Assembly: GCF_014077505.1 (NCBI RefSeq)
Contig: NZ_JACGWA010000007.1
Span: 1-64,000 of the forward strand
Direction: 5' to 3'
Origin: Colwellia sp. BRX10-3
GTDB taxonomy: Bacteria > Pseudomonadota > Gammaproteobacteria > Enterobacterales > Alteromonadaceae
Length of the DNA: 64,000 nt
The notes under the pieces were generated by a model. The model worked only from the letters and a program-made list of their open reading frames with translations. It was not told the origin of the DNA and did no database searches. This document shows positions 8,233 to 46,828 of the stretch, in pieces. The position numbers and the translations under genes were made by a program. Within the stretch, counting starts at the first letter, position 1; every line of letters begins with the position of its first letter.

Positions 8233-8322
8233 GTTATTTTCCTATTAAATTTTATACTATTTAGTCGCTTTTAATGTGCTTAAAACATCATGTATATACA
8301 ATTCTAAAGCCATAAAAATGCG

Positions 8323-8358
8323 AAAACCCCCGAGAGAGGAGAACTCTTTCGGGGGTTT
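8323..8358 (-). terminator. his operon attenuator terminator
   Basis: On the minus strand five C (8355-8351) pair with five G (8331-8327), extended inward by seven pairs including one wobble and outward by A-U pairs, around a five-base loop. A T-rich tract (TTTTCGCATTTTTA) follows. The hairpin lies between hisL and hisG. In the family model a ribosome stalled at the His codons of hisL lets upstream segments pair and prevents this hairpin from forming. Alternative upstream pairing is visible between CTCAG and CTGAG around 8400-8420. Confidence 0.9.
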
Positions 8359-8424
8359 AGAAATTAATTTTTTATCTTACACCGCTGAAAGGTTCAAAGC
8401 CCCTCAGCGAATAAACCTGAGCAG

Positions 8425-8472
8425 CTAATCCGTATGGTGATGATGATGGATGGCAATCAGATTTAAAGTCAT
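8425..8472 (-). CDS. hisL: his operon leader peptide HisL
   Basis: The 15-codon frame reads MTLNLIAIHHHHHTD and contains five consecutive His codons (four CAT, one CAC). It starts about 115 nt upstream of a strong Rho-independent hairpin and 240 nt upstream of hisG. This is the classic enterobacterial his attenuation arrangement, in which histidyl-tRNA shortage stalls the ribosome in the leader. E. coli has seven histidines in a 16-residue peptide. No strong Shine-Dalgarno is visible. Confidence 0.92.
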   Translation of the reverse strand: MTLNLIAIHHHHHTD

Positions 8473-33799: not shown

Positions 33800-34381
33800 A
33801 TGAAAATATCAAATTATTCTCTTAATGAACTTGTGTGGCATTTTTCACAAGATTACTTACAAGCTTACCAACATAGGTTTGAACATTTACCTATTACTCA
33901 TAAGGATGAAGATTGGGCATCGCCTTGTGAACAAGGAGATCACGAAGAAGATTTTTCTTTATGGCATCCGATAAAAGTTGATGAAGCCCTAACGTTTGAC
34001 AATGTTGAAGCGGCATTAGAAGTAAAGCTTCATGATGACATTAAACAGTATTTTACCGCTATTTATAGTGACAGTTTAGATGCAAGTTGTGTTGAAGGAG
34101 ATTTGTCGCTGCTATTTGCATGGAGCGAAAAAGACTTTGCTCGTTTACAAGAAAATATAATTGGTCATATTTTAATGAAAACGAAGTTAAAGCAAAAGTT
34201 AACCATATTTTTTGCCATCACAGATGACGACGACCATATAATATCATTAGACAATGAAACTGGCTCAGTTTGGGTGGAAAAAGTTGGCTGCAACCCGCAT
34301 AAAAAAATAGCGGATACCTTGGCTGAATTTATTTTGCAACTTACACCACGTATTCCGCCAAAAGCTATAGAAAATGATTAG
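33800..34381 (+). CDS. syd: SecY-interacting protein Syd
   Basis: Syd is a peripheral cytoplasmic protein that binds SecY and may act in quality control of the translocon. Family features seen are the SPCEQGD-like N-terminal segment, [20 protein letters not shown], the conserved [20 protein letters not shown] (~residues 102-122), and [20 protein letters not shown]. The length is 193 aa (181 in E. coli). It pairs divergently with queF, a conserved arrangement. Confidence 0.92.
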
Positions 34382-35446: not shown

Positions 35447-36961
35447 CTAGTTATGCTGTTTTGCTCTGCTTTGATGTGTTCTGCTGCCACTGCTTTTTCG
35501 GCGGTTGGCTACTTTAGTCTCTGCGCGTTTATTCACTTTTTTTACGCTTTTAGCACTTTGACTTTTCTTGTAAGTACTTTTAGGTGTATTTACAGGTTTA
35601 GAATAATTTCTTTCAGTAACACCTTGGTTACTAAATACCTGTTTACTTTGTCTATGACTATCGTTACTTACCTTACTTTTGACTGCATTATGCTTATTAG
35701 TAGATCGATTAGGTAATGATTTGCTCGACCTAGTAGTTTTTACTTTTCCATTGTAAGCTTTTCTACTGTCTTTAGCGTGCTGCCAATTTTTATCTTTATA
35801 GGGTTCATGCTTAGTCAATGACTGCTTACTTACCTGATGTTTATCAATTTTAACCTGATGTTTGTCAATTTTGACCGCTTGATTGACTCGCAATTTATTT
35901 TTCAAACCCTGACTTTTACTACTGTTATATTTACTACTGTTATATTTACTCGATTTCAGTTTTGTCGTGTGTTTGTTTTTATTCACAAAATGCTTTTGTT
36001 TTCCACGCACTGCCTTGTGTTGTTGCTGGCTCGGCGTGTGACTACTATATTTTTTCTGTATGTTTGACGTACGATAAGCTACGCCTTTTCTGTGATTAGG
36101 GTTATGCTCCCAGCGTTGTGCCTGATGACTGCTAGAAACCTTTTTCTTGCTATGATGTTTGTAATATCTAGACTTGTGATGATGAACAACTACATGACGA
36201 TTGCTCCAATGCACAGCGCCAAAAAACAGCCCTACAGTAAGATGTACCGGGTTATGCCAGTAATATGGACCATGATGCGAAGCATATTGTACTGGGTGAT
36301 GCCAAAAAATTGGAGGATAATGTGACCAACGCCAATCGCCATAAACCACTCTAGTGTCGTAGTAAGGTACATAAATTATATCGGGCTGTCTTGACTCAAT
36401 AATGATTGTTTTAGTTTCACGAACAACCTTTACGTTGTTCATATTTTGAAGATTACCTGCTTGATCTGCTTGTTGACGCAATACTTGCACACTAGCCAGT
36501 AACTTTGCCTCATCTTGTAAAAAAGCATCGCCTAAATTACGCATCCAATGTAAATCATCACTTAATCTTTTAAGCACATTTGGAAAAGGTAATAGTGCTT
36601 TGACGCTGGCATCCCAATTTTTATGTTCTGCAGCGTCGGCAAGAGCTTGAGCGCTCAGCTGGCTGTTTTTATTTATCCAGCGTTCGGCGTCAACAACTTC
36701 AATAGGATAAGTTGTGGCAATCAAAATATGAGTAAGTAAAGCATCTGGATACAATGCGATAGGGGCTAGCATCTGTTCTAGCTCCGCATCTGTATAATTG
36801 CTGGTGTTATTTGCTTGCTCAGTTAAGGTTGCATTACTGTTTGCCCCATAAGGGCTTGAGCTAGAGTTGTCAGCGGCAAGGCCGGATGTTGAAAACACCA
36901 AAGCGCTTGTTAGCGATAGCACTAAATAATTTAATGACCTTCTTAATTTAACTTTTTGCAT
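35447..36961 (-). CDS. DUF3300 exported His/Lys-rich protein
   Basis: I start this at MQKVKLRRSLNYL (36961), where AGGAG lies 8 nt upstream; the product is 504 aa. A Sec signal peptide (~1-30, ending GLAAD) is followed by the DUF3300 domain (~55-240: LEQMLAPIALYPDALLTHIL, WDASVKALLPFPNVL, PDIIYVPYYDTRVVYGDW). A His/Tyr/Trp-rich stretch follows (HHPVQYASHHGPYYWHNPVH). The last ~220 residues are very basic, with Lys, Ser, His and Asn repeats. It is probably periplasmic or surface, possibly metal- or polyanion-binding. A GTTCAG direct repeat upstream links it to the adjacent PhoP-like system. Confidence 0.85.
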   Translation of the reverse strand: MQKVKLRRSLNYLVLSLTSALVFSTSGLAADNSSSSPYGANSNATLTEQANNTSNYTDAELEQMLAPIALYPDALLTHILIATTYPIEVVDAERWINKNSQLSAQALADAAEHKNWDASVKALLPFPNVLKRLSDDLHWMRNLGDAFLQDEAKLLASVQVLRQQADQAGNLQNMNNVKVVRETKTIIIESRQPDIIYVPYYDTRVVYGDWRWSHYPPIFWHHPVQYASHHGPYYWHNPVHLTVGLFFGAVHWSNRHVVVHHHKSRYYKHHSKKKVSSSHQAQRWEHNPNHRKGVAYRTSNIQKKYSSHTPSQQQHKAVRGKQKHFVNKNKHTTKLKSSKYNSSKYNSSKSQGLKNKLRVNQAVKIDKHQVKIDKHQVSKQSLTKHEPYKDKNWQHAKDSRKAYNGKVKTTRSSKSLPNRSTNKHNAVKSKVSNDSHRQSKQVFSNQGVTERNYSKPVNTPKSTYKKSQSAKSVKKVNKRAETKVANRRKSSGSRTHQSRAKQHN

Positions 36962-37073
36962 GTTAACACTCCTGTATATCGGATGATTAAAAGGTCGCCT
37001 TCGAATGAACGGCTCAAAGTAAAAGCTGTTCAGATGACTTTTTAAGTTATGCTGCAATATTAACCGTTGTAAA

Positions 37074-37090
37074 CTGAACCTTAGCTGAAC
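37074..37090 (-). promoter_or_regulatory. PhoP-box-like direct repeat upstream of the DUF3300 gene
   Basis: On the minus strand GTTCAG-CTAAG-GTTCAG is an exact direct repeat with an 11-bp period, the layout of OmpR/PhoP-family operators. It lies 113-129 bp upstream of the DUF3300 start. Near-identical repeats precede the other two units of this cluster. Confidence 0.65.
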
Positions 37091-37115
37091 AGACATACTA
37101 TTTGGTATTAATTAT

Positions 37116-38510
37116 TTATAAAGGGAAGTTTAGGGTGAATTTTGCACCTTTTAATCGCTCTGACGATTCAATGAGCATACTACCTTGGTAACTATTGACT
37201 AAATCTCGTACTATGGCCAAACCAATGCCATGACCATGTTGATAAGTGTCTGCTCGAGTACCGCGTTGTAATATCTCTTCTCTTTGGGCTGGTGCTATGC
37301 CTGCACCATCGTCTTGTATAACGATGATCATGCTATTTTTAGTGTTATTAGCGCTGAGGCTGATATCAAGTTGAACTTCTTTTTTTGCCGCTTTACAGGC
37401 GTTATCTAATAAGTTTCCGAGTATCTCTAATAGGTCGGCTTCATCACCTTTAAAGTTACATTCAGCAGCAATATTGACCTTAAATGATAATGATTTATCT
37501 CGATAAATTTTTTCTAAACTGTTGAGTAATTTTTTCGCTATTGGTGCTGCCGCAGTGCCCAAGTACCATGATGATTGCCCCGCGCTTTGTGCTTTGCGAA
37601 GTTGATGTTCAATAATTACATTGATAATACTGAGTTGCTCTTGAGTGAGCGCTGATAACTCTTGTTGTGTTTGCATAACAGCTAGAGGGGTTTTTAGGCT
37701 ATGAGCAAGATCAGATAGCGCATTACGATAGCGTTTACGTTGTTTTTGTTCCGCATTTAACAACAAGTTCAATTGTTCAGTAACCTGGGTTAGCTCGGTT
37801 GGATAAACCCCTGTAAGTCGCTCACTTTTTCCTTGCTCGACATCACTGAGCTCGGTTGTTAAGGCTTTTAACGGTTTTAAGGTCCACAAAGACCAAAGAT
37901 ATTGAATCAGTAAAAGCACCAACATTAAGCCTGCTAACCCTAGCATGAGCTGGCGATGAAATTCTGCCATCATCTGAGTTAAGTCGTCTTGCTGCTTTAT
38001 AATATGTAAAGTCATGGGGAAAGGTTGTTGCTCACTGCCATAGCTAACACTTAAGCTGTACACAAAGTGTGGCTGCGTATCTATTTCTACTTGATAAAAT
38101 GCACTATCGCCTAATACCGGTTGCTGTAAGCCTTTTGTTTGCCATGGCGACAGTAAGGATTGAGAGCTCCAAAGTTTTTCTGTAGAAGTTGACCCTGTTT
38201 GCGCTATGTTGTTTTTTATTGTGCTTAGGCTACGGGTTAATACAGCATATAGGCCTGACTGGCTAACATTAAATTGAGGTTCTAATAGCAGTTCTGGCAT
38301 AACAAGGCTGTTATCTTCAACTTCTATAATAGCTAAAATAGAATAAGAATAAGCTGACAGCTCATTCTTTAAACTAGCCACCATATGTTTTTCATAAGCA
38401 TTACTGATAATTAACCCAACGATGGGTAATAAGATAAAAATCATTAATAAGGCACTAAACAGTACCCTTGTTTTTAATGAGTTTAGTGACTTTTTCAGCG
38501 AATTTAACAA
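37116..38510 (-). CDS. PhoQ-like sensor histidine kinase
   Basis: This 464-aa membrane kinase has two membrane helices (~16-38 and ~190-210) around a ~150-residue periplasmic sensor and a HAMP-like linker. The H-box is SDLAHSLKTPLAVM, the N-box LGNLLDNACKAAKKE, and G-boxes are VIQDDGAGIAP and GHGIGLAIVRDLV. The H-box and catalytic core resemble PhoQ. The periplasmic domain lacks an obvious acidic patch, so the stimulus is not clear. The start is TTG with AAGGTAG upstream. It is 44 nt after the response regulator gene. Confidence 0.88.
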   Translation of the reverse strand: MLNSLKKSLNSLKTRVLFSALLMIFILLPIVGLIISNAYEKHMVASLKNELSAYSYSILAIIEVEDNSLVMPELLLEPQFNVSQSGLYAVLTRSLSTIKNNIAQTGSTSTEKLWSSQSLLSPWQTKGLQQPVLGDSAFYQVEIDTQPHFVYSLSVSYGSEQQPFPMTLHIIKQQDDLTQMMAEFHRQLMLGLAGLMLVLLLIQYLWSLWTLKPLKALTTELSDVEQGKSERLTGVYPTELTQVTEQLNLLLNAEQKQRKRYRNALSDLAHSLKTPLAVMQTQQELSALTQEQLSIINVIIEHQLRKAQSAGQSSWYLGTAAAPIAKKLLNSLEKIYRDKSLSFKVNIAAECNFKGDEADLLEILGNLLDNACKAAKKEVQLDISLSANNTKNSMIIVIQDDGAGIAPAQREEILQRGTRADTYQHGHGIGLAIVRDLVNSYQGSMLIESSERLKGAKFTLNFPL

Positions 38511-38554
38511 CTAAATCTACCTTTTTATTCTTAAGTGGCTACAACGCTAATAAA

Positions 38555-39244
38555 TCAACCTGAATTGAGGTTGATTAAGTTTTTTAATAAGTAGCCTTGG
38601 CCACGCAACGTTTCAATAAATTGGTATTGATTGTCAGGGTCAAGTTTTTTTCGTAACCGGCGAATAAAGACTTCAATAACGTTTGAATCTAGATCAAAGT
38701 CTTGATCATAAATATGTTCAGTAAGCTGTGCTTTTGATTTTACTTCGCCTAAATGATGCATCAAATATTCAAATAACTTGTATTCATAACTGCTGAGCGA
38801 AATGACTTCTTGATTCACACTAACTTGCATACTCGCAGTATTTATCGCAAATGGGCCATTTTCGATTATTGGACTCGCTTGGCCGGTACTGCGGCGAATT
38901 AAAGCATTTAATCGTGCTAATAGTTCTTCAATATGAAAAGGCTTAGTTAAATAATCATCAGCACCAGCGTCTAATCCGGATACTTTATCTTGCCAACTGC
39001 CACGCGCCGTTAATATTAAGATAGGAAATGTAAAACCTTGTTCACGTAAAGATTTAACAACACTGACACCGTCAATTTTAGGTAGACCTAAATCAATAAT
39101 TGCCGCGTCGTATGGAAACTCTTGGCCTTGAAATAGACCTGATTCGCCATCACTTGCTACATCAACACTGTATTTAGCCATGATTAAATGATTTTTTACG
39201 TGTTGTTGTAGATTTTCATCGTCTTCGACGAGCAATATTCTCAT
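38555..39244 (-). CDS. PhoP-like OmpR-family response regulator
   Basis: This 229-aa regulator has a receiver domain (LLVEDDENLQQHV; phospho-acceptor Asp in AAIIDLGLPKIDG, ~51; Thr in LILTARGSWQDKV; Lys in YLTKPFHIEELLAR). Its winged-helix DNA-binding domain ends with VIEVFIRRLRKKL and IETLRGQGYLL. The ARxSWQDKVxxLxAGADDYxTKPFHIEE stretch is close to E. coli PhoP. It lies 3 nt after the PepSY gene and precedes its kinase. It is the likely reader of the three GTTCA direct repeats nearby. Confidence 0.92.
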   Translation of the reverse strand: MRILLVEDDENLQQHVKNHLIMAKYSVDVASDGESGLFQGQEFPYDAAIIDLGLPKIDGVSVVKSLREQGFTFPILILTARGSWQDKVSGLDAGADDYLTKPFHIEELLARLNALIRRSTGQASPIIENGPFAINTASMQVSVNQEVISLSSYEYKLFEYLMHHLGEVKSKAQLTEHIYDQDFDLDSNVIEVFIRRLRKKLDPDNQYQFIETLRGQGYLLKNLINLNSG

Positions 39245-39247
39245 TGA

Positions 39248-39559
39248 TTAGTGTCCCGATATACGGCCAGATTCGGCGTCTACATTGACTGATATTACAT
39301 GGCCATTGTCTTTAAGTAACTTAATTCGGTAACTTGGTTTTTTTTTAGAACCACTGTTGTTAACCTTTAACACTTTGCCGCCAAATTTATTTTTTACGAT
39401 ACGAGCAGCTTGTTGAGCACTAATGGATTTAGCATTACTCGATTGTCCGTATTTAGCTTTTACAATCATCATACTATTAGGCACTGCCTCGATCTTAGCA
39501 AACACAGGTGCTGCTAATAATGAAGCTATTACGCTTAAAATAAATAATTGTTTTTTCAT
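39248..39559 (-). CDS. PepSY-domain periplasmic protein
   Basis: This 103-aa protein has a Sec signal peptide (MKKQLFILSVIASLLAAPVF, cleavage after FAK or VFA) and one PepSY domain (ISAQQAARIVKNKFGGKVLK, SYRIKLLKDNGHVISVNVDA, ESGRISGH). Such proteins are often cotranscribed with OmpR-type two-component systems and may modulate the sensor or a protease. It is the first gene of the unit, 3 nt before the regulator. Confidence 0.9.
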   Translation of the reverse strand: MKKQLFILSVIASLLAAPVFAKIEAVPNSMMIVKAKYGQSSNAKSISAQQAARIVKNKFGGKVLKVNNSGSKKKPSYRIKLLKDNGHVISVNVDAESGRISGH

Positions 39560-39753: not shown

Positions 39754-39801
39754 ATTAACTCAGGTTAAATGATAGCCATACTTTATATTGAGGCTGTCGC
39801 T

Positions 39802-40617
39802 ATGTTTAATAAAATTTTTAAAAAAAGGTTTAATAAAAAAATAACAACCAACCTAACCGCAACTTTGTTGTTGGTAAGCCAAATATCTTTTGCACAAACA
39901 CTATCAAAAGTAGAGCAGGTAAGCTCCTCTACTGGTGGGCTAAAAAATAATATAGTTGAGCTTGATAAAAGTGATATTGTCTCTAAGAATCAAGTGGGTG
40001 CCAACCATAAAACCTTAACCTATAAGGGGATGGATAGAACTGAGGTAATACTTGCCCGAAACAAAAAAGTAAAACAACTTGTACCAGCGTCTTCACTTAA
40101 CCAAAGCATTGAATATAGTGCGGCTTTGTATCATAGCTTCTCAATTTACACCGGCTACAGTCAACTTATTGAAGATATTGATGAAGATGGATATTACCAG
40201 ACCTTTGGCGTAACTTTTGATGCCGATGTATTATCGTCAATACCTAACGATCAAGCTGTTGTATATGCTGACTTATACTTGAGTGAAGATGGTGGACCTT
40301 GGATTTTATATTTTTCTACCGATGATTTCGTTATAACAGGGGAATATACTGAAGATGAATTTGAGGTGATTACTCAGTTAGACTCAGGTTATGTGCCAAG
40401 TAATTACGACGTGTTAATTGATTTATATGAAGTGGGTTACAGTGATGTGGTAGCGACTTATAGCTCAAACGATAGTAATGCGCTTTATGGCCTACCATTA
40501 GAAAGTGGCGATTATGATCCTGAATATATAGAAGTTGAATACATCGAAGAACACTCAGGAGGCAGCAGTTGGTTGTTGTTTGGTGCATTAATGGCATTAG
40601 TTATTCGCCGTCGTTAA
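39802..40617 (+). CDS. Choice-of-anchor H family surface protein with GlyGly-CTERM tail
   Basis: I start this at MFNKIFKKRF (39802), with GAGG upstream, giving 271 aa. It has a signal peptide (~1-31, ending ISFAQ), a linker, and a conserved acidic Tyr-rich domain (IDEDGYYQTFGVTFDADVLS, ADLYLSEDGGPWILYFSTDD, YDVLIDLYEVGYSDVVATYS) that I recognise as the choice-of-anchor H family. It ends SGGSSWLLFGALMALVIRRR, a GlyGly-CTERM signal: Gly-Gly-Ser, hydrophobic helix, Arg cluster. That tail is expected to be processed by a rhombosortase, and the protein then exported, often via type II secretion. Function unknown. Confidence 0.82.
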   Translation: MFNKIFKKRFNKKITTNLTATLLLVSQISFAQTLSKVEQVSSSTGGLKNNIVELDKSDIVSKNQVGANHKTLTYKGMDRTEVILARNKKVKQLVPASSLNQSIEYSAALYHSFSIYTGYSQLIEDIDEDGYYQTFGVTFDADVLSSIPNDQAVVYADLYLSEDGGPWILYFSTDDFVITGEYTEDEFEVITQLDSGYVPSNYDVLIDLYEVGYSDVVATYSSNDSNALYGLPLESGDYDPEYIEVEYIEEHSGGSSWLLFGALMALVIRRR

Positions 40618-40789: not shown

Positions 40790-41440
40790 ATGTCATCACA
40801 AGCCAGTGACAAAAACAATGTTGATATAAAAGCCGCCTATCTTTCGGCGGAAGATTTGAAATTAGCTGCATCATTATTATATCAAGCCTATCATGATGAT
40901 CCGGTGTTTCTTGAAATATTTTCTGCTGAAAAGAGTGATTACGAACAACGTTTACGTGCTGCAATACGCGAGGAGTTAAATGCTTTTTGGCAAGCAAAAC
41001 AACCTATGATTGGTTTGTACTTAGGTGAAACTATGGTGGGTGTTGCCTGTTTGAATAATCCAGAAGAAGGAGTGTCATCTGAGCGCTTCTGGCATTGGCG
41101 TTTAAAAATGTTGCTCGGTGCGGGGTATTTTAGTACTAAACAAATGATTGAAAAAGAAAAAATTGTTTTAGCTTCAGTACCTTTGAAAAAATTTCATATG
41201 TTGTCATTTATTGCTATACATCCATTACATCAACATCATGGTTTTGGCCATTATTTAATGGCGGCAGTAAATACCATTCTTGCAGAACATAAAGATAGTG
41301 AAGGTGTTGCTGTTTACGCTACGAGTAAAAAATATAAAGCGTTTTTTAAAGATGTGAATTATCAGTTTATTAAAGAGGTTGCTGTGGGCAATGTCTCTGG
41401 TTCTTTAATGGTTTATTATCGTGAAGCGGACGAAAGCTAG
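40790..41440 (+). CDS. GNAT-family N-acetyltransferase
   Basis: This 216-aa protein shows the GNAT fold. The N-terminal helix region DLKLAASLLYQAYHDDPVF is followed by MVGVACLNNPEE and the acetyl-CoA-binding motif A, HMLSFIAIHPLHQHHGFGHYLMAAV (~residues 139-163; the Q/R-x-x-G-x-G/A loop reads HQHHGFGHYL). The C-terminal VAVYATSKKYKAFFKDVNYQ is motif B. The substrate cannot be named. It is followed by the csr RNA region. Confidence 0.85.
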   Translation: MSSQASDKNNVDIKAAYLSAEDLKLAASLLYQAYHDDPVFLEIFSAEKSDYEQRLRAAIREELNAFWQAKQPMIGLYLGETMVGVACLNNPEEGVSSERFWHWRLKMLLGAGYFSTKQMIEKEKIVLASVPLKKFHMLSFIAIHPLHQHHGFGHYLMAAVNTILAEHKDSEGVAVYATSKKYKAFFKDVNYQFIKEVAVGNVSGSLMVYYREADES

Positions 41441-41847
41441 TCGTTAGCATTTTTAGTTAATTTTACCTAAGTAAGGTTAAGCACAAGGTGTTTAACTTTA
41501 CTTAGCTAATACATAGGCTCTTCAAAGGTTTTTATTTCATAGCGTTGATTATAGATACGGTTATCTAGTATTGGCGATGAAATTACACTTCACTTAAAAC
41601 ATCAAATCGCTTTTCTCTCACACTCTAGAGAATTACTCAATCGCCTTAATATGACCATTCAATGTAAGAGATATCTTACGTTGCTGTAGGATATAGTGTT
41701 TTTGGTGCCTGATGTAACTTAATGTGACGCTTTAAGTTGATGTTTTTTAATGTTTTTATTTGTGCATTTAAATGCCATCATTTACTTTTACTGTTTTTTT
41801 TAATTTACTCACTTTGAATAGTTCGCATTTAGTCTACTATTATAACT
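41441..41847. other. Upstream region of csr-like RNA 1
   Basis: No coding frame is evident. It contains the UvrY/GacA-type palindrome at 41663-41680 and A/T-rich sequence leading to the presumed RNA start near 41848, preceded by a TACTAT/TATTAT -10-like hexamer. Confidence 0.6.
41663..41680. promoter_or_regulatory. UvrY/GacA binding palindrome upstream of csr-like RNA 1
   Basis: TGTAAGAGATATCTTACG is nearly identical to the gammaproteobacterial UvrY/GacA site (TGTAAG-N6-CTTACA). It lies 185 bp before the GTCAGGAAGAC motif taken as the RNA 5' end. In E. coli the UvrY site lies at a similar distance upstream of csrB. Confidence 0.85.
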
Positions 41848-42150
41848 GTCAGGAAGACAAAGGGATTACAAATAACGGTAAGGATATACCAATAGGATGC
41901 TTAGATTAGCAAAGAGATAGGATGTCTCGCAAGGATAGATGGACTAAATTGTCACGGAATAGTCATCAGGAAGATGAGTACAGACAATTGATGTAACTCG
42001 GATAGTTACTTTTAAGGACAATGAGGACAGCAAATGGTTTGCTAGGAAAGGCTAGGGATAGCTCTTTATGGATGAAGCGGGATCATTATATATTTATGCA
42101 GGATGCATATAAGCTAGTTATAGAAATGCGGTTCATAGAACCGCTTTTTT
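41848..42150 (+). ncRNA. CsrB-family regulatory RNA 1
   Basis: This gene-free stretch carries 17 GGA triplets in about 300 nt, mostly AGGA, AGGGA or TGGA in small hairpin contexts (for example ATGCAGGATGCAT, and GATAGGATGTC). It ends in the terminator GCGGTTC-ATA-GAACCGC plus six T (42128-42150). A UvrY-type palindrome precedes it. CsrB-type RNAs sequester the translational regulator CsrA through GGA loops. E. coli csrB sits next to syd and before yqcC-truC; here the RNA likewise lies between syd and truC, though with many genes inserted. The 5' end is inferred from the motif shared with RNA 2. Confidence 0.88.
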
Positions 42151-42424
42151 ATGCCCAAAATTTATTCATTGTAGTTCAATCAACCTGATTCTTTAATCCT
42201 TATCAAAACAACGCAATAGCCAATGCCTACTTCGCTTCAAATTCTTAGTAGCTATTAATCAACCCATTTCTTGGCAACCCTCGCTTTGAGCTGATTGTGT
42301 AGCTATATCTGGTATTAAGATATTCGCTTTGGTCATACAAATTTAAACATTAAGTAAAAAATTACAATGTGCCATAAAGTATTGAAATCTGGTATGCCAG
42401 CTTATATCCATCTGGTGTTCTTGC

Positions 42425-43540
42425 TTAATATTCAATTAAATTGGCATAAAAGGGCGATTTCCCTAACGTTGCTTGGCTACCCTTTAGTGAAAAGTTGTAA
42501 CCGCAAAGCGCAAAGCTATTTTTAAAAGCGATATTTTTAATTAACCTTTTAGTATCTAATGGTGAGAAGTAGGCATAATAGCCGCTGTCCGCTGTGCTAA
42601 CACTATAGGTTCTTATTGCTTCTTCATCATTAAACTTGATAGTTTCACAGCTTTTATCACCTTTAGCAGTGCCTAGGGCCCAAACTTCACGATTATTTTT
42701 CACATCAGCTTGCCAATGGATAACAATAGCTTCATCCGCAGCGATCATGACAGAAAAGTTATCTGGCAATGTTAATTTATGTTGATAGCTTGTTGTTTCT
42801 TGAACTTGGCTTGTTTGCTCTATAGGGCTTAGAGTTGGTGATGATCGTGAAAAAATCAAAGATATTACCAGCACTAACATAAATAACGAAATAATTACCG
42901 CGATAGTGATCCGAGCATTTTTTTTACTAAAGAGTGCTAATCGAATTGATTCAGCAAGTTCTATTTTGTCTTGTATATTCGCACTAGAGTGATTCATTTG
43001 GCTTGTTGAAGAACTGTTTTCAATACTGTCTGTAAATGGCGAATAGTGACTTTGAGATACCGAAGGCTGATTAACATTGATACTATTCATTGTTGGTTCA
43101 ACACGTTGGTTGTTGTGTACGTTTGCTTTATTTACTGGTTGAAAGTCTGATAAATTAACCGGACCATTATAGCCAAGTATATAGCGTTTTTGTCTTTTAC
43201 TTGGATAAGTTAACAGTAGTAAACTCAAAAATAATGGCATCAACAACAACCAATAGCTAATGCCATAACTGGTAAAGATAATAATTAAACCTGTCATTAA
43301 TAAGCTGCCCGCGGGAGCTAAAATCCATTTGCTATTCAGTTGTGCATCATTTAATCGGCGCCGAGTCGTCGTTAAGCAAGTTAATGAACATACTAACAGT
43401 ATGACACTGACGCTTAATTTATAATCACTTAAGCTCAAATTTAAAATGATAAAAGCAATTAAGCATGAAAGCATAATAAAGATAAAACGTTGTCGATTAT
43501 CAAAACCGTGCCAGCAATATAGTGACTTAATAAGTTGCAC
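42425..43540 (-). CDS. DUF805-like membrane protein with C-terminal extracytoplasmic domain
   Basis: This 371-aa protein starts with a DUF805-like module (SLYCWHGFDNRQRFIFIMLS, TTRRRLNDAQLNSKWILAP; about four helices to ~115). A hydrophilic Asn/Ser-rich linker (~125-195), a further membrane helix (ARITIAVIISLFMLVLVISL, ~210-230) and a ~140-residue C-terminal domain (KLTLPDNFSVMIAADEAIVI) of unknown family follow. The start is GTG with GGAGG upstream. It lies on the minus strand between two csr-like RNAs. Function unknown. Confidence 0.8.
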   Translation of the reverse strand: MQLIKSLYCWHGFDNRQRFIFIMLSCLIAFIILNLSLSDYKLSVSVILLVCSLTCLTTTRRRLNDAQLNSKWILAPAGSLLMTGLIIIFTSYGISYWLLLMPLFLSLLLLTYPSKRQKRYILGYNGPVNLSDFQPVNKANVHNNQRVEPTMNSINVNQPSVSQSHYSPFTDSIENSSSTSQMNHSSANIQDKIELAESIRLALFSKKNARITIAVIISLFMLVLVISLIFSRSSPTLSPIEQTSQVQETTSYQHKLTLPDNFSVMIAADEAIVIHWQADVKNNREVWALGTAKGDKSCETIKFNDEEAIRTYSVSTADSGYYAYFSPLDTKRLIKNIAFKNSFALCGYNFSLKGSQATLGKSPFYANLIEY

Positions 43541-44037
43541 AAAACCTCCGAAAATAAGTCAGCTCTTTATTGTATGCGCTGACTTGAAAAATACTAGAAT
43601 AAAAACTCCATGAGAGTGGGCAGGGTAACCAATTTCAACTGCAAAGTCAGTTTATCTAGACGATTTATTTGGGTATTTACGGGGCAGTACAATACATAGT
43701 TATTGGGTTAGTTATTTTAAGTGATTTGAACATGATTTAAAGTGCAGTTCTTCGGTATAAATTTCGATGTTCTAGGTAGTAAGGTAAATATTTAATATGT
43801 GTAGGACTGGTTATTATAAATGAATGATGAAAATCGTAATTTGAGCAAAATTATGTAAGAGATATCTGTAGGTTTTGTCAGTTGGTACGAATTAACTTGG
43901 TTTTTATCTGTTATTGTTTTTTTATAATACTGATTTTTAATGTTTATTTTATTTAAATGGTTTTTTATTAATACCACATACGAAAATAAAACTGTTACCG
44001 TCTATTTTATAAAATCACTTCAATTAAACTTGTTGTT
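43541..44037. other. Upstream region of csr-like RNA 2
   Basis: Strongly A/T-rich, without a credible gene. A 61-codon open frame on the minus strand (43792-43977) overlaps the UvrY site and looks like chance. The region carries the UvrY/GacA-type site at 43854-43871 and the presumed RNA 2 promoter. Confidence 0.6.
43854..43871. promoter_or_regulatory. UvrY/GacA binding palindrome upstream of csr-like RNA 2
   Basis: TGTAAGAGATATCTGTAG shares its first 14 bases with the site at 41663 and differs in the last arm. It lies 184 bp before GTCAAGGAGAC, against 185 bp at the first RNA. Confidence 0.8.
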
Positions 44038-44288
44038 GTCAAGGAGACGCAGAGTTAGGGAAACCGATTAGGTACAAAAGCATTGACAGTGATGTATTTA
44101 TGGATTAAATGGAATTATTGTTAAAAATGGAGTTAGATTATTTAATCTTAGGTAAATAAGGATGTTATGCAGGATGTATAGGTTATTCATGGAGTGAACT
44201 GATTTTTTAGGGAAGAAGTGCTAAAGGATAGCAAGCCAAGGATATAGTTAAATAATCAAAATGAAAAAGCGACATTATGTCGCTTTTT
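44038..44288 (+). ncRNA. CsrB-family regulatory RNA 2
   Basis: About 250 nt hold 11 GGA motifs, including GCTAAAGGATAGC, a stem with GGA in its loop. It starts with GTCAAGGAGAC like RNA 1 (GTCAGGAAGAC) and shares the internal ATGCAGGATGYATA. It ends in the terminator AAAAAGCGACA-TTA-TGTCGCTTTTT (44264-44288). The matching UvrY-type site upstream supports transcription under the BarA/UvrY (GacS/GacA) system. It is shorter and poorer in GGA than RNA 1, so a CsrC-like partner. The convergent DUF3301 gene ends 30 nt beyond the terminator. Confidence 0.82.
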
Positions 44289-44317: not shown

Positions 44318-44620
44318 TTAATTTACACGGTAAGCAGGAGTGTCAATATTATCGAGCTTGTAACCTCGCAATGTCATCGTGCCATGGTATGTTGATTCAC
44401 CATCACCACTAAATTCAAAATCGAAATTACTCAGCCAATGCGGCCCCAAGTGTTTAGAAAATTTAAATCGGCTAGAAAGACGCGCTATCGCTAAAAATTG
44501 TAAATTTTCTTGTTTACAATATTTATCAGCATGTGAACGTGCATACTCTGCGACTTTTCGTAAATACACGAAATACCAAAAAAGTAACCCTATAAAAAGT
44601 AAATAGTAAATATTTTCCAT
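44318..44620 (-). CDS. DUF3301 domain protein
   Basis: This 100-aa protein has one N-terminal membrane helix (YYLLFIGLLFWYFVYLR, ~5-21) followed by a soluble domain with AEYARSHADKYCKQENLQFL, LSSRFKFSKH and FDFEFSGDGESTYHGTMTLR. These fit DUF3301 as I remember it from Vibrio and Shewanella, where it is likewise paired with a DUF3549 gene. It starts 8 nt after the DUF3549 stop. Function unknown. Confidence 0.85.
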   Translation of the reverse strand: MENIYYLLFIGLLFWYFVYLRKVAEYARSHADKYCKQENLQFLAIARLSSRFKFSKHLGPHWLSNFDFEFSGDGESTYHGTMTLRGYKLDNIDTPAYRVN

Positions 44621-44628
44621 GAGAATGC

Positions 44629-45669
44629 CTATTGTTTAAAAAGCATGCCAATGGCTTGGGCCAAATCTGGGCTGCGTTTTGGTGAACGAATTGCTTGCAA
44701 TAGTACGGGGCGTATCAATGGTATTGCAACTAAATCTTTAAATATTGCCGAAAATAATTCGTTATCATTGTCTTTTATTAAATGTTCTAAATAGACAAAA
44801 AGCACTTTTTCAGTACTTAATATTGGCCATAAACGACCCGCAATAATAATCAGTATTTCGTCATTAAGTGCTTTATTAGTGATTAAAGACGTCAAAAATT
44901 CGTGACTAAAAGGATGTTCAGTACTCGATGCAAGTGCACGCAGTAATGCTATAGCCGCTGTATTGTTATTATCATTTATTTCTCGCTGGAAACGTGACGT
45001 TATTTGCATAATAACTTCAGCAGATAACGTGATATTTTCAAGTGCAGAACATAGAGGCACAAGTACTTGTTCAGGCAAATAACTTAAAGCGTTTGCTAAA
45101 GTATCGTTATTGTTAACTTCATTTAATCGAAAGGCAAAGTCAGATAAACCTTGCACACCTATCTCTTGCCAATATTGCCAACCGTTATCGCCTGATAAGT
45201 AACTTTGTGCAGGTGCGTAGAACTTGCTGGCATTTTGTTTAAGTAAAGATGATACAACACTGTTTACTGCGGCTAATTTATATTGAACGGGCGTAAAGTG
45301 ATAGGGGTTTTTCTTAAGCAAAGCTTCTTGCTGCTCGGTTGGACTTACCGTGAGATTATCACCTAATGCTTCAATGATAATAGCAATAAAATGGTTTCTA
45401 GCTCCTTGATTTAATAAGCCACGTTCATCTAGAGGTAGTTTTATAAACCATAAATAAGGGCTAGCTGATTGTTTTTGCCAAAATGCAATAGCGAGCAATG
45501 CATGCCCTTGAATAGGATAAGGATAAGGTAGTTGAGCCGCCTCAATTTTTTCAAATTGCTCTTTCGATATTTTATCTACTCGACGACCAATATCATAAAT
45601 TCGATATTGAGAATCAGATAAGCTCAGTAGTGCTGAAATTGAAGAAATAGTGTCTGAAGTTGTACTCAT
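44629..45669 (-). CDS. DUF3549 family protein
   Basis: This 346-aa cytoplasmic protein matches the DUF3549 pattern: N-terminal ISALLSLSDSQYRIYDIGRR, PYPYPIQGHALLAIAFWQ, YLWFIKLPLDERGLLNQGAR, FTPVQYKLAAVNSVVS, and a helical HEAT-like C-terminal half. It forms a pair with the DUF3301 gene. Both lie between the csr RNAs and truC. Function unknown. Confidence 0.85.
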   Translation of the reverse strand: MSTTSDTISSISALLSLSDSQYRIYDIGRRVDKISKEQFEKIEAAQLPYPYPIQGHALLAIAFWQKQSASPYLWFIKLPLDERGLLNQGARNHFIAIIIEALGDNLTVSPTEQQEALLKKNPYHFTPVQYKLAAVNSVVSSLLKQNASKFYAPAQSYLSGDNGWQYWQEIGVQGLSDFAFRLNEVNNNDTLANALSYLPEQVLVPLCSALENITLSAEVIMQITSRFQREINDNNNTAAIALLRALASSTEHPFSHEFLTSLITNKALNDEILIIIAGRLWPILSTEKVLFVYLEHLIKDNDNELFSAIFKDLVAIPLIRPVLLQAIRSPKRSPDLAQAIGMLFKQ

Positions 45670-46051: not shown

Positions 46052-46828
46052 ATGACAATTAAAAATGCCGGAACGGTAATTGTTGATAAACCCGTGTTAA
46101 AAATTTTATATCAAGACGAGTACTTGGTTGCAGTTGATAAACCTGCAGGGCTATTTGTCCATCGAAGTTTTATGGATAAAGATGAAATTTATTTTGCTTT
46201 ACAACTTATTCGTGATCAAATTGGTCAATATGTTTACCCATTACACCGACTTGATCGGCCAACTTCAGGTGTGTTGATGTTTGCTTTAACTCAAGATGTT
46301 GCTCGCTTAATGGGGCAGGCGTTTAGTGAGCGGAGGATTCAAAAAATCTACTACGCGTTAACGCGAGGACACTTGTTAAATGATGGGACAATTGACTACT
46401 CATTAAAAGAGAAGCTTGATGATTTAGGGGATAAAAATGTTAGTCGTGACAAAGAAGCGCAAAATGCGATAACTGACTATCATTCTGTAGCTACAGCTTC
46501 ATTACAGGTGCCATTAGGGAAGTATTCAAGCGTTCGGTATTCGTTAATTAAATGTCGGCCTCATACTGGGAGACGTCATCAAATTCGACGACATTTAGCG
46601 CATTTACGTCACCCTATAATTGGCGATATAAATTATGGCGACAATAAGCAAAATCCATTTTTTGGTGAGCACTTTGGTTTTAAACGTTTAATGCTAATCG
46701 CTAAGCAAGTAGATTTTATTCATCCAGTTACCGGAACAGCGGTGACGATTGAAGCAGAGTTTGATACACAATGGCAGCAAATTTTTAATGAATTTGAATG
46801 GCAAGAGTTAATGCTTAATGTGCTGTAA
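46052..46828 (+). CDS. truC: tRNA pseudouridine(65) synthase TruC
   Basis: TruC isomerises U65 in tRNA(Ile1) and tRNA(Asp). It is a RluA-family synthase with LYQDEYLVAVDKPAGLFVHRS and the catalytic motif LHRLDRPTSGVLMFA (catalytic Asp ~70). RPHTGRRHQIRRHLAHLRHP and IIGDINYGD are the other family signatures, and HFGFKRLMLIA separates it from RluA and RluC. The length is 258 aa (260 in E. coli). About 17 extra residues precede the usual start at LKILYQDE. Confidence 0.95.
   Translation: MTIKNAGTVIVDKPVLKILYQDEYLVAVDKPAGLFVHRSFMDKDEIYFALQLIRDQIGQYVYPLHRLDRPTSGVLMFALTQDVARLMGQAFSERRIQKIYYALTRGHLLNDGTIDYSLKEKLDDLGDKNVSRDKEAQNAITDYHSVATASLQVPLGKYSSVRYSLIKCRPHTGRRHQIRRHLAHLRHPIIGDINYGDNKQNPFFGEHFGFKRLMLIAKQVDFIHPVTGTAVTIEAEFDTQWQQIFNEFEWQELMLNVL

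Follow-up and report, generated by a model that had tools for sequence, protein, structure and literature searches.

Two gene-free, GGA-rich intervals lie between syd and truC in Colwellia sp. BRX10-3, on the 64,000-nucleotide (nt) stretch of DNA that was analysed (the window), which raises the question of whether they are genes for small RNAs and, if so, of which kind. An initial annotation had taken both to be CsrB-type RNAs preceded by UvrY/GacA boxes. This reading is upheld with high confidence: the two intervals, RNA1 and RNA2 (both on the + strand; coordinates throughout are window positions), appear to be CsrB-type RNA genes whose products would act as sponges of CsrA under BarA/UvrY control. 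The identification draws on synteny with Escherichia coli and Shewanella, on covariation, on the retention of GGA triplets and on the presence of csrA, barA and uvrY in the genome.

The GGA counts first reported, 17 in RNA1 and 11 in RNA2, are exact, and TCC occurs in neither. When both strands of all 64 kilobases (kb) were scanned in sliding 250-nt windows with steps of 5 nt, the two intervals gave the most GGA-dense windows (16 and 11; the third holds 7), the background having a mean of 1.2 and a standard deviation of 1.26. Dinucleotide shuffles matched the observed count in none of 2000 trials for RNA1 and in 4 of 2000 for RNA2. The similar openings, the shared inner motif and the terminators described at the outset were all located: RNA1 opens with GTCAGGAAGAC and RNA2 with GTCAAGGAGAC, a small GTC..GAC hairpin stands at the 5′ start of each, the internal motif is ATGCAGGATGCATA in RNA1 and ATGCAGGATGTATA in RNA2, and the intrinsic terminators are GCGGTTC-ATA-GAACCGC followed by a T-run, and AAAAAGCGACATTATGTCGCTTTTT, respectively. 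A pattern scan found the RNA2 terminator on the minus strand only, because its T-run sits within the stem. Folding compared with shuffled sequence gave a z score of −2.88 for RNA1 (100 shuffles) and −4.62 for RNA2 (200 shuffles). GGA triplets are found in the loops of conserved hairpins in RNA1; RNA2 has fewer such hairpins, namely GTC..GAC and TGCAGGATGCA.

A TGTAAGAGATATCT palindrome, at 41663 and 43854, precedes the RNA starts by 185 and 184 nt, the distances originally given; the copy of RNA2 is imperfect, its right half reading CTGTAG and not CTTACA. Only these two exact copies of TGTAAGAGATATCT are present among 15 genome-wide matches to TGTAAGNNATNNCT, and the position of the box relative to the RNA is kept in relatives. 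Between box and RNA, candidate IHF sites were scored with a consensus that we take to be that of IHF. Matches of at least 8/9 were present in 27 of 40 upstream regions (9.5 in shuffles) and fell 65–95 nt past the box start in 21 of the 40 (2.5 in shuffles); the best match lay at an offset of 68–72 nt in 28 regions, in 19 of them at 8/9 or better. At this shared offset the window's own two promoters reach just 7/9, and the best match in the RNA1 promoter (8/9) lies at offset 85. Sigma-70-like sites number 8 in the region and 12.5 are expected in shuffles, and it is position alone that favours the putative RNA1 promoter.

Conservation was followed in a genus set of 17 genomes, of which 16, including that of the window, are near-complete and one is 66% complete. 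RNA1 is a single-copy gene in all 16 near-complete genomes, the 15 other copies being 76–94% identical to the window's, and was not found in the 66% complete seventeenth. Of the 16, 8 carry an intact RNA2 (the window, G002, G004, G009, G010, G013, G014 and G015), and full-length RNA2 matches are 69–79% identical to the window's. Three genomes (G007, G011 and G012) hold remnants with 4–5 GGA and no box, two (G005 and G008) retain the terminator only, G001 has a terminator-like relic recognised by eye, and in G003 and G016 nothing recognisable of RNA2 was found. For triplets and structure, RNA1 was aligned from 12 of the 16 genomes (in G007, G009 and G014 it lay outside the stretches first fetched, and in G011 it carries an insertion) and RNA2 from all 8 intact copies. 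On average, a GGA triplet of RNA1 is retained in 10.0 of 11 relatives, compared with 7.4 for other triplets (permutation p 0.00035), and one of RNA2 in 4.9 of 7, compared with 2.4 when triplets of every kind are taken, terminator excluded (0 of 20000 permutations). In the RNA1 consensus structure 98.1% of cells are paired, and 10 of 73 pairs have changed on both sides (2.9 in shuffles, 1–3 when the structure was slid along the alignment); for RNA2 the figure is 9 of 35 pairs (4.1 in shuffles, 1–3 when slid). These triplet and covariation numbers are indicative, since adjacent triplets, like related species, are not independent of one another and the same alignments also supplied the structures.

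The insertion in RNA1 of G011 (locus L050) is internal and brings the RNA to 376 nt, compared with about 307 nt, with 20 GGA. One model stretch of about 35 positions was matched there three times in series (nhmmer), as if a GGA unit had been tandemly duplicated.

The order of genes in the window is queF, syd, a series encoding a DUF3300 protein, a histidine kinase, a response regulator and a PepSY protein, an open reading frame (ORF), a GNAT-like gene, RNA1, a DUF805-like gene, RNA2, DUF3301, DUF3549 and truC, followed beyond truC by dapD, glnD, map and rpsB (by Pfam). The placement of the RNAs between syd and truC was thus correct but loose, syd lying about 7.5 kb and several genes upstream of RNA1. 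In E. coli MG1655 (L193) the order is queF-syd-csrB-yqcC-truC in the same relative orientation; unlike the pair in the window, csrB has no second copy at this place (annotated length 369 nt), and csrC is located away from it. Neighbourhoods were compared in 40 loci of Shewanella and its kin, taken from the best 80 of 192 relatives, and in 39 of named Colwelliaceae. Homologues of the GNAT-like gene, syd, DUF3301 and truC were present in 33, 31, 36 and 37, respectively, of the 40 loci of Shewanella and kin, where boxed GGA clusters stand at the same place: two in 26 loci, one in 10 and none in 4, two of the last (L150 and L158) being on contigs of 4.9 and 5.6 kb. A strict count in the 39 Colwelliaceae loci gave two boxed clusters in 5, one in 21 and none in 13, and misses copies with an altered box, such as RNA2 of this genus, and copies outside the fetched flank. 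The locus in the window is very probably the ancestral csrB locus, and seems prone to changes in copy number. At the same place, four loci from other genera or families of the order (L069, L076, L083 and L084) hold two or three clusters rich in GGA, and a UvrY-type box accompanies most of these.

The genome encodes the proteins expected of a Csr pathway. One CsrA gene (91 bits), UvrY (396 bits) and BarA (1150 bits) all exceed their curated cut-offs; the best CsrD-like match scores 415.8 bits, below the cut-off of 663. Genome-wide, 15 matches to TGTAAGNNATNNCT and 7 to TGTRNGANATNTCY, with 3 shared, define 19 different box sites, and of these 19 only the two in the window have a tract dense in GGA downstream (13 and 10 GGA per 200 nt). 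The other 17 have at most 5 GGA per 200 nt downstream and, where scored, at most 7 on the other side. A pattern of three close AGGA matched 27 times in the genome, 4 of them within RNA1; the reversed pattern is the same pattern and is uninformative as a control. Six further stretches, five from AGGA matches and one around a box, scored at most 6 GGA per 200 nt. The box and AGGA scans of the genome thus found no third csr RNA, although a short Rsm-like RNA may have escaped them. A strong UvrY-type box, TGTAAGACATATCT, was observed at G000:C28:47537-47550 (−) and also in loci L002 and L186; with at most 5 GGA per 200 nt downstream it has too few for a csr RNA and is possibly a direct UvrY target.

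Table 1 Features of the two-RNA locus and its neighbours in the window.
Feature	Position	Strand	Remarks
syd	33800..34381	+	Conserved upstream neighbour; PF07348, 203 bits
GNAT-like acetyltransferase gene	40790..41440	+	Directly upstream of RNA1; FR47 20.1 bits, below gathering 22.1
UvrY/GacA-type box of RNA1, TGTAAGAGATATCTTACG	41663..41680	+	Resembles the E. coli csrB inverted repeat
Extra half-site, TGTAGGATA	41685..41693	+	4 nt past the RNA1 box; cf. E. coli csrB
IHF-like element of RNA1, TAAGTTGATGTTT	41733..41745	+	70 nt past the box start; 7/9 consensus
Sigma-70-like promoter of RNA1, TTGAAT-18-TATTAT	41814..41843	+	
RNA1, predicted CsrB-type RNA	41848..42152	+	305 nt, 17 GGA; intrinsic terminator 42128-42150
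DUF805-like membrane protein gene	42425..43540	−	Between RNA1 and RNA2; 371 codons
UvrY-type box of RNA2, TGTAAGAGATATCTGTAG	43854..43871	+	Right half altered
IHF-like element of RNA2, TATAATACTGATT	43923..43935	+	Matching offset; 7/9 consensus
RNA2, predicted CsrB-type RNA	44038..44288	+	251 nt, 11 GGA; terminator 44264-44288
DUF3301 gene	44318..44620	−	Conserved downstream neighbour
DUF3549 gene	44629..45669	−	Conserved downstream neighbour
truC-like pseudouridine synthase gene	46052..46828	+	

Several results weigh against this identification. The Rfam CsrB model (RF00018, gathering score 71 bits) gives RNA1 only 23.2 bits and RNA2 no match at all. The covariance check proposed at the outset is passed by RNA1 on its expectation value (E 8.8e-4 when 3 kb are searched and 2.7e-4 for the whole genome, with a composition bias of 10.4 bits) and failed by RNA2, for which the support comes from the genus alignment. 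The same model also matches 5 of 14 control genomes at E 1 or better, in one of them over the cut-off. Further pair types in RNA1 show no excess (23, compared with 24.6 in shuffles), and both structures have the advantage of having been predicted from the alignments used to judge them (12 and 8 related sequences). A hidden Markov model (HMM) of RNA2 from other genera matches, within the window, just the terminator of RNA2 (E 3.4e-5), and one made from 12 Shewanella RNAs has no significant match to either RNA (best E 0.22–0.25, in the RNA1 promoter region); sequence kinship beyond the family therefore lacks support, and the body of RNA2 is unrecognisable outside the genus.

On the other side, an HMM built from RNA1 of 10 Colwelliaceae of other genera matches RNA1 at E 1e-50, the best of ten 64-kb Markov controls reaching E 1.9; its RNA part alone gives E 3e-38, with no control match. 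Rfam CsrB at the gathering level was likewise not found in two Shewanella loci (L159 and L148) and four Colwelliaceae loci (L107, L114, L101 and L129), all of which have GGA clusters. The weak score probably reflects the reach of the model more than the nature of RNA1 and RNA2, and suggests that the Rfam model does not extend to Colwelliaceae. Both RNAs are classed here as CsrB-type RNAs, not as members of RF00018.

If the identification is right, phosphorylated UvrY would bind the upstream palindrome, perhaps with help from IHF as at E. coli csrB, RNA polymerase would start near 41848 and 44038, and the intrinsic terminators would end transcription. The RNAs would then present 17 and 11 GGA, often in the loops of hairpins, and titrate the single CsrA, which would relieve or reverse CsrA control of target mRNAs. 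In this reading RNA1 is the core copy and RNA2 an older sibling that would add sponge capacity and is dispensable in many relatives.

The two RNAs had been proposed to stem from a local duplication that has since diverged, which is right in kind; the pair is, however, probably older than the genus, because the copy-specific terminators of the genus recur in Thalassotalea and Thalassomonas. RNA1 terminators of several genera share a stem like GCGG(C/T)TC..GA(A/G)CCGC and RNA2 terminators one like AAAAGCGAC..GTCGCTTTT (AAGCGGC..GCCGCTTTT in Thalassomonas); exceptions exist, mostly in single-copy or more distant rows. RNA1 and RNA2 were thus probably already separate genes in the ancestor of these genera. 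A tree of 37 RNA rows, which left out 7 Colwelliaceae rows, 12 Shewanella rows and RNA2 of G013 and G015, agrees in part: RNA2 of the genus groups with that of Thalassotalea (90/82, not starred), but that of Thalassomonas is placed on the RNA1 side, a clade of all RNA2 is rejected (p 0.00036), and a duplication within the genus alone is not rejected (p 0.139). The RNA tree does not settle the age alone, and the dating rests on the terminators. Mapped on a tree of three neighbouring genes, the RNA2 states require four changes (bootstrap range 3–5), of which strongly supported branches alone force 2; these are read as losses because RNA2 is also present in Thalassotalea and Thalassomonas.

The uneven RNA2 box is the one feature unexpected from the literature consulted, and RNA2 might lie outside strict UvrY control and answer another input, so that the pair would integrate two signals. 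In the genus, the right half of the box contains CTG(C/T)A in each of the 8 intact RNA2 copies, compared with YYAC(A/G) at the end of the 16 RNA1 boxes; of 7 two-copy loci in other genera, 5 have a regular RNA2 box (L062, L107, L111, L112 and L119). Differential control of csrB siblings is reported in Vibrio tasmaniensis (PMC6262261) and suggested in Shewanella oneidensis in the published account (PMC3171408). The left half TGTAAG and the spacing are nevertheless kept; E. coli csrC, whose right half is similarly weak (TGTGAGACATTGCCGATA), is described as UvrY-bound all the same (PMC4682653); and in the other two two-copy loci the box is weak in the right half (L114, TGTAAGACATTGTCAATA) or no good box was found (L118), which indicates that right-half decay is not limited to the genus. 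A second input is a tentative proposal, with the odds leaning towards ordinary UvrY control.

RNA2 could also be a decaying relic of an old duplicate that has kept its GGA by chance while RNA1 alone works. Its loss in part or whole from 8 of the 16 near-complete genomes, its faster evolution (compare the identities above), its asymmetric box and the failure of promoter HMMs from other genera to find its promoter would fit such decay. Intact copies, however, retain GGA at about double the rate of triplets in general, terminator excluded; their helices covary; all 8 have the 5′ GTC..GAC hairpin, the terminator and a box that contains TGTAAG or CGTAAG; and RNA2 is intact in G009 and G014 although a rearrangement has separated it there from RNA1. 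A relic is therefore unlikely. It is highly improbable that the two intervals encode protein or form the leaders of genes that follow: a 55-codon frame overlaps RNA1 (42021-42188), but indels among relatives are not all multiples of three in either RNA, both RNAs end in terminators, and the next downstream genes (DUF805-like and DUF3301) are convergent, on the opposite strand.

With both intervals read as CsrB-type RNA genes, a speculative history can be outlined, in which RNA2 gained its altered UvrY half-site before the species split, the two RNAs came to serve two inputs, and RNA2 then became dispensable in some niches and was lost repeatedly. We regard it as possible, though the less favoured course of events; if true, the locus would be a natural series, from intact gene to terminator-only relic, on the use of a second Csr sponge.

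The neighbouring genes differ in how widely they are shared. The gene between the RNAs is present as described, but its assignment to DUF805 is weak (15 bits, E 0.035, gathering 25.7); homologues occur in 24 of the 39 named Colwelliaceae loci and in none of the 40 loci of Shewanella and kin. The DUF3300, histidine kinase, response regulator and PepSY genes form a series at 35447-39559, between syd and the GNAT-like gene. The protein encoded at 39769-40617 (+) has no Pfam match, and its C-terminal end, GGSSWLLFGALMALVIRRR, resembles what we take to be a GlyGly-CTERM-type sorting signal. In G009 and G014 the histidine kinase, response regulator and PepSY genes, this ORF, the GNAT-like gene and RNA1 remain linked despite the rearrangement. 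A relocation of RNA1 in these two genomes was considered and ruled out, since the GNAT-like gene and the upstream genes still adjoin it; the break falls between RNA1 and the DUF3301 side. In G007, RNA1 lies about 12 kb from the DUF3549 gene, with extra genes in between. Elsewhere in the window, a histidine operon leader (RF00514) was matched at 8318-8449 (−), just upstream of minus-strand ORFs (50.5 bits, gathering 49).

Csr RNAs of other marine relatives can be likened to the pair by their published descriptions, not by sequence. Pseudoalteromonas fuliginea has Pf1–Pf3, of which Pf2 and Pf3 are reported as binding CsrA and as increasing glycogen in E. coli (PMC11882849, PMC9927453); outside Pseudoalteromonas, the Pf paper gives just a partial Pf3 match, in Thalassotalea sp. 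LPB0316. In Alteromonas, three Csr RNAs (Aln1a–c) are described from one 404-nt intergenic region (PMC5864184). As in the csrB paralogues of Vibrio, copy number here shifts through duplication and loss, but the Vibrio copies are described in different synteny groups and are not adjacent (PMC6262261). The pair in the window was not found described in the literature examined on csrB or CsrA in Colwellia, Thalassotalea and Alteromonadales (PMC5471319, PMC11882849 and PMC3840354), although earlier predictions of CsrA-regulating RNAs may include a Colwellia.

The regulatory region resembles that of E. coli csrB, in which an inverted repeat, TGTGAGAGATCTCTTACA, is centred at −183/−182 and IHF is reported to assist UvrY (PMC4682653). 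In both, the box is centred near −183, a half-site follows it (in E. coli TGTAGGAGA, 5 nt past the box, compared with TGTAGGATA, 4 nt past it, in RNA1), and a putative IHF site lies between box and promoter (PMC4682653). The E. coli RNA has 22 GGA (PMC11882849).

The closest arrangement is that of S. oneidensis, where csrB1 and csrB2 are a proven pair, parted by a transposase gene and dependent on BarA and UvrY (PMC3171408). As there, two close GGA-type RNAs with TGTAAGN6CTTACA-type boxes flank a gene; unlike there, the RNAs are 305 and 251 nt long (420 and 421 base pairs predicted in S. oneidensis; PMC3171408), and the gene between encodes a DUF805-like membrane protein common in Colwelliaceae. 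Most Shewanella loci compared, S. oneidensis being outside them, have two boxed GGA clusters with GNAT upstream and DUF3301-DUF3549-truC downstream, as here. The Shewanella pair and the pair in the window may share one duplication. A paired csrB at this place is thus already a known kind, and its proven arrangement in Shewanella is here extended to Colwelliaceae. What is new is that 8 of the 16 near-complete genomes have an intact RNA2, that the other 8 have lost it in part or whole, and that the right half of the box is altered in every intact copy. Within a single genus, one Csr sibling is fixed while the other varies in its presence, and a comparison of close relatives can therefore test why bacteria retain several Csr RNAs that look redundant.

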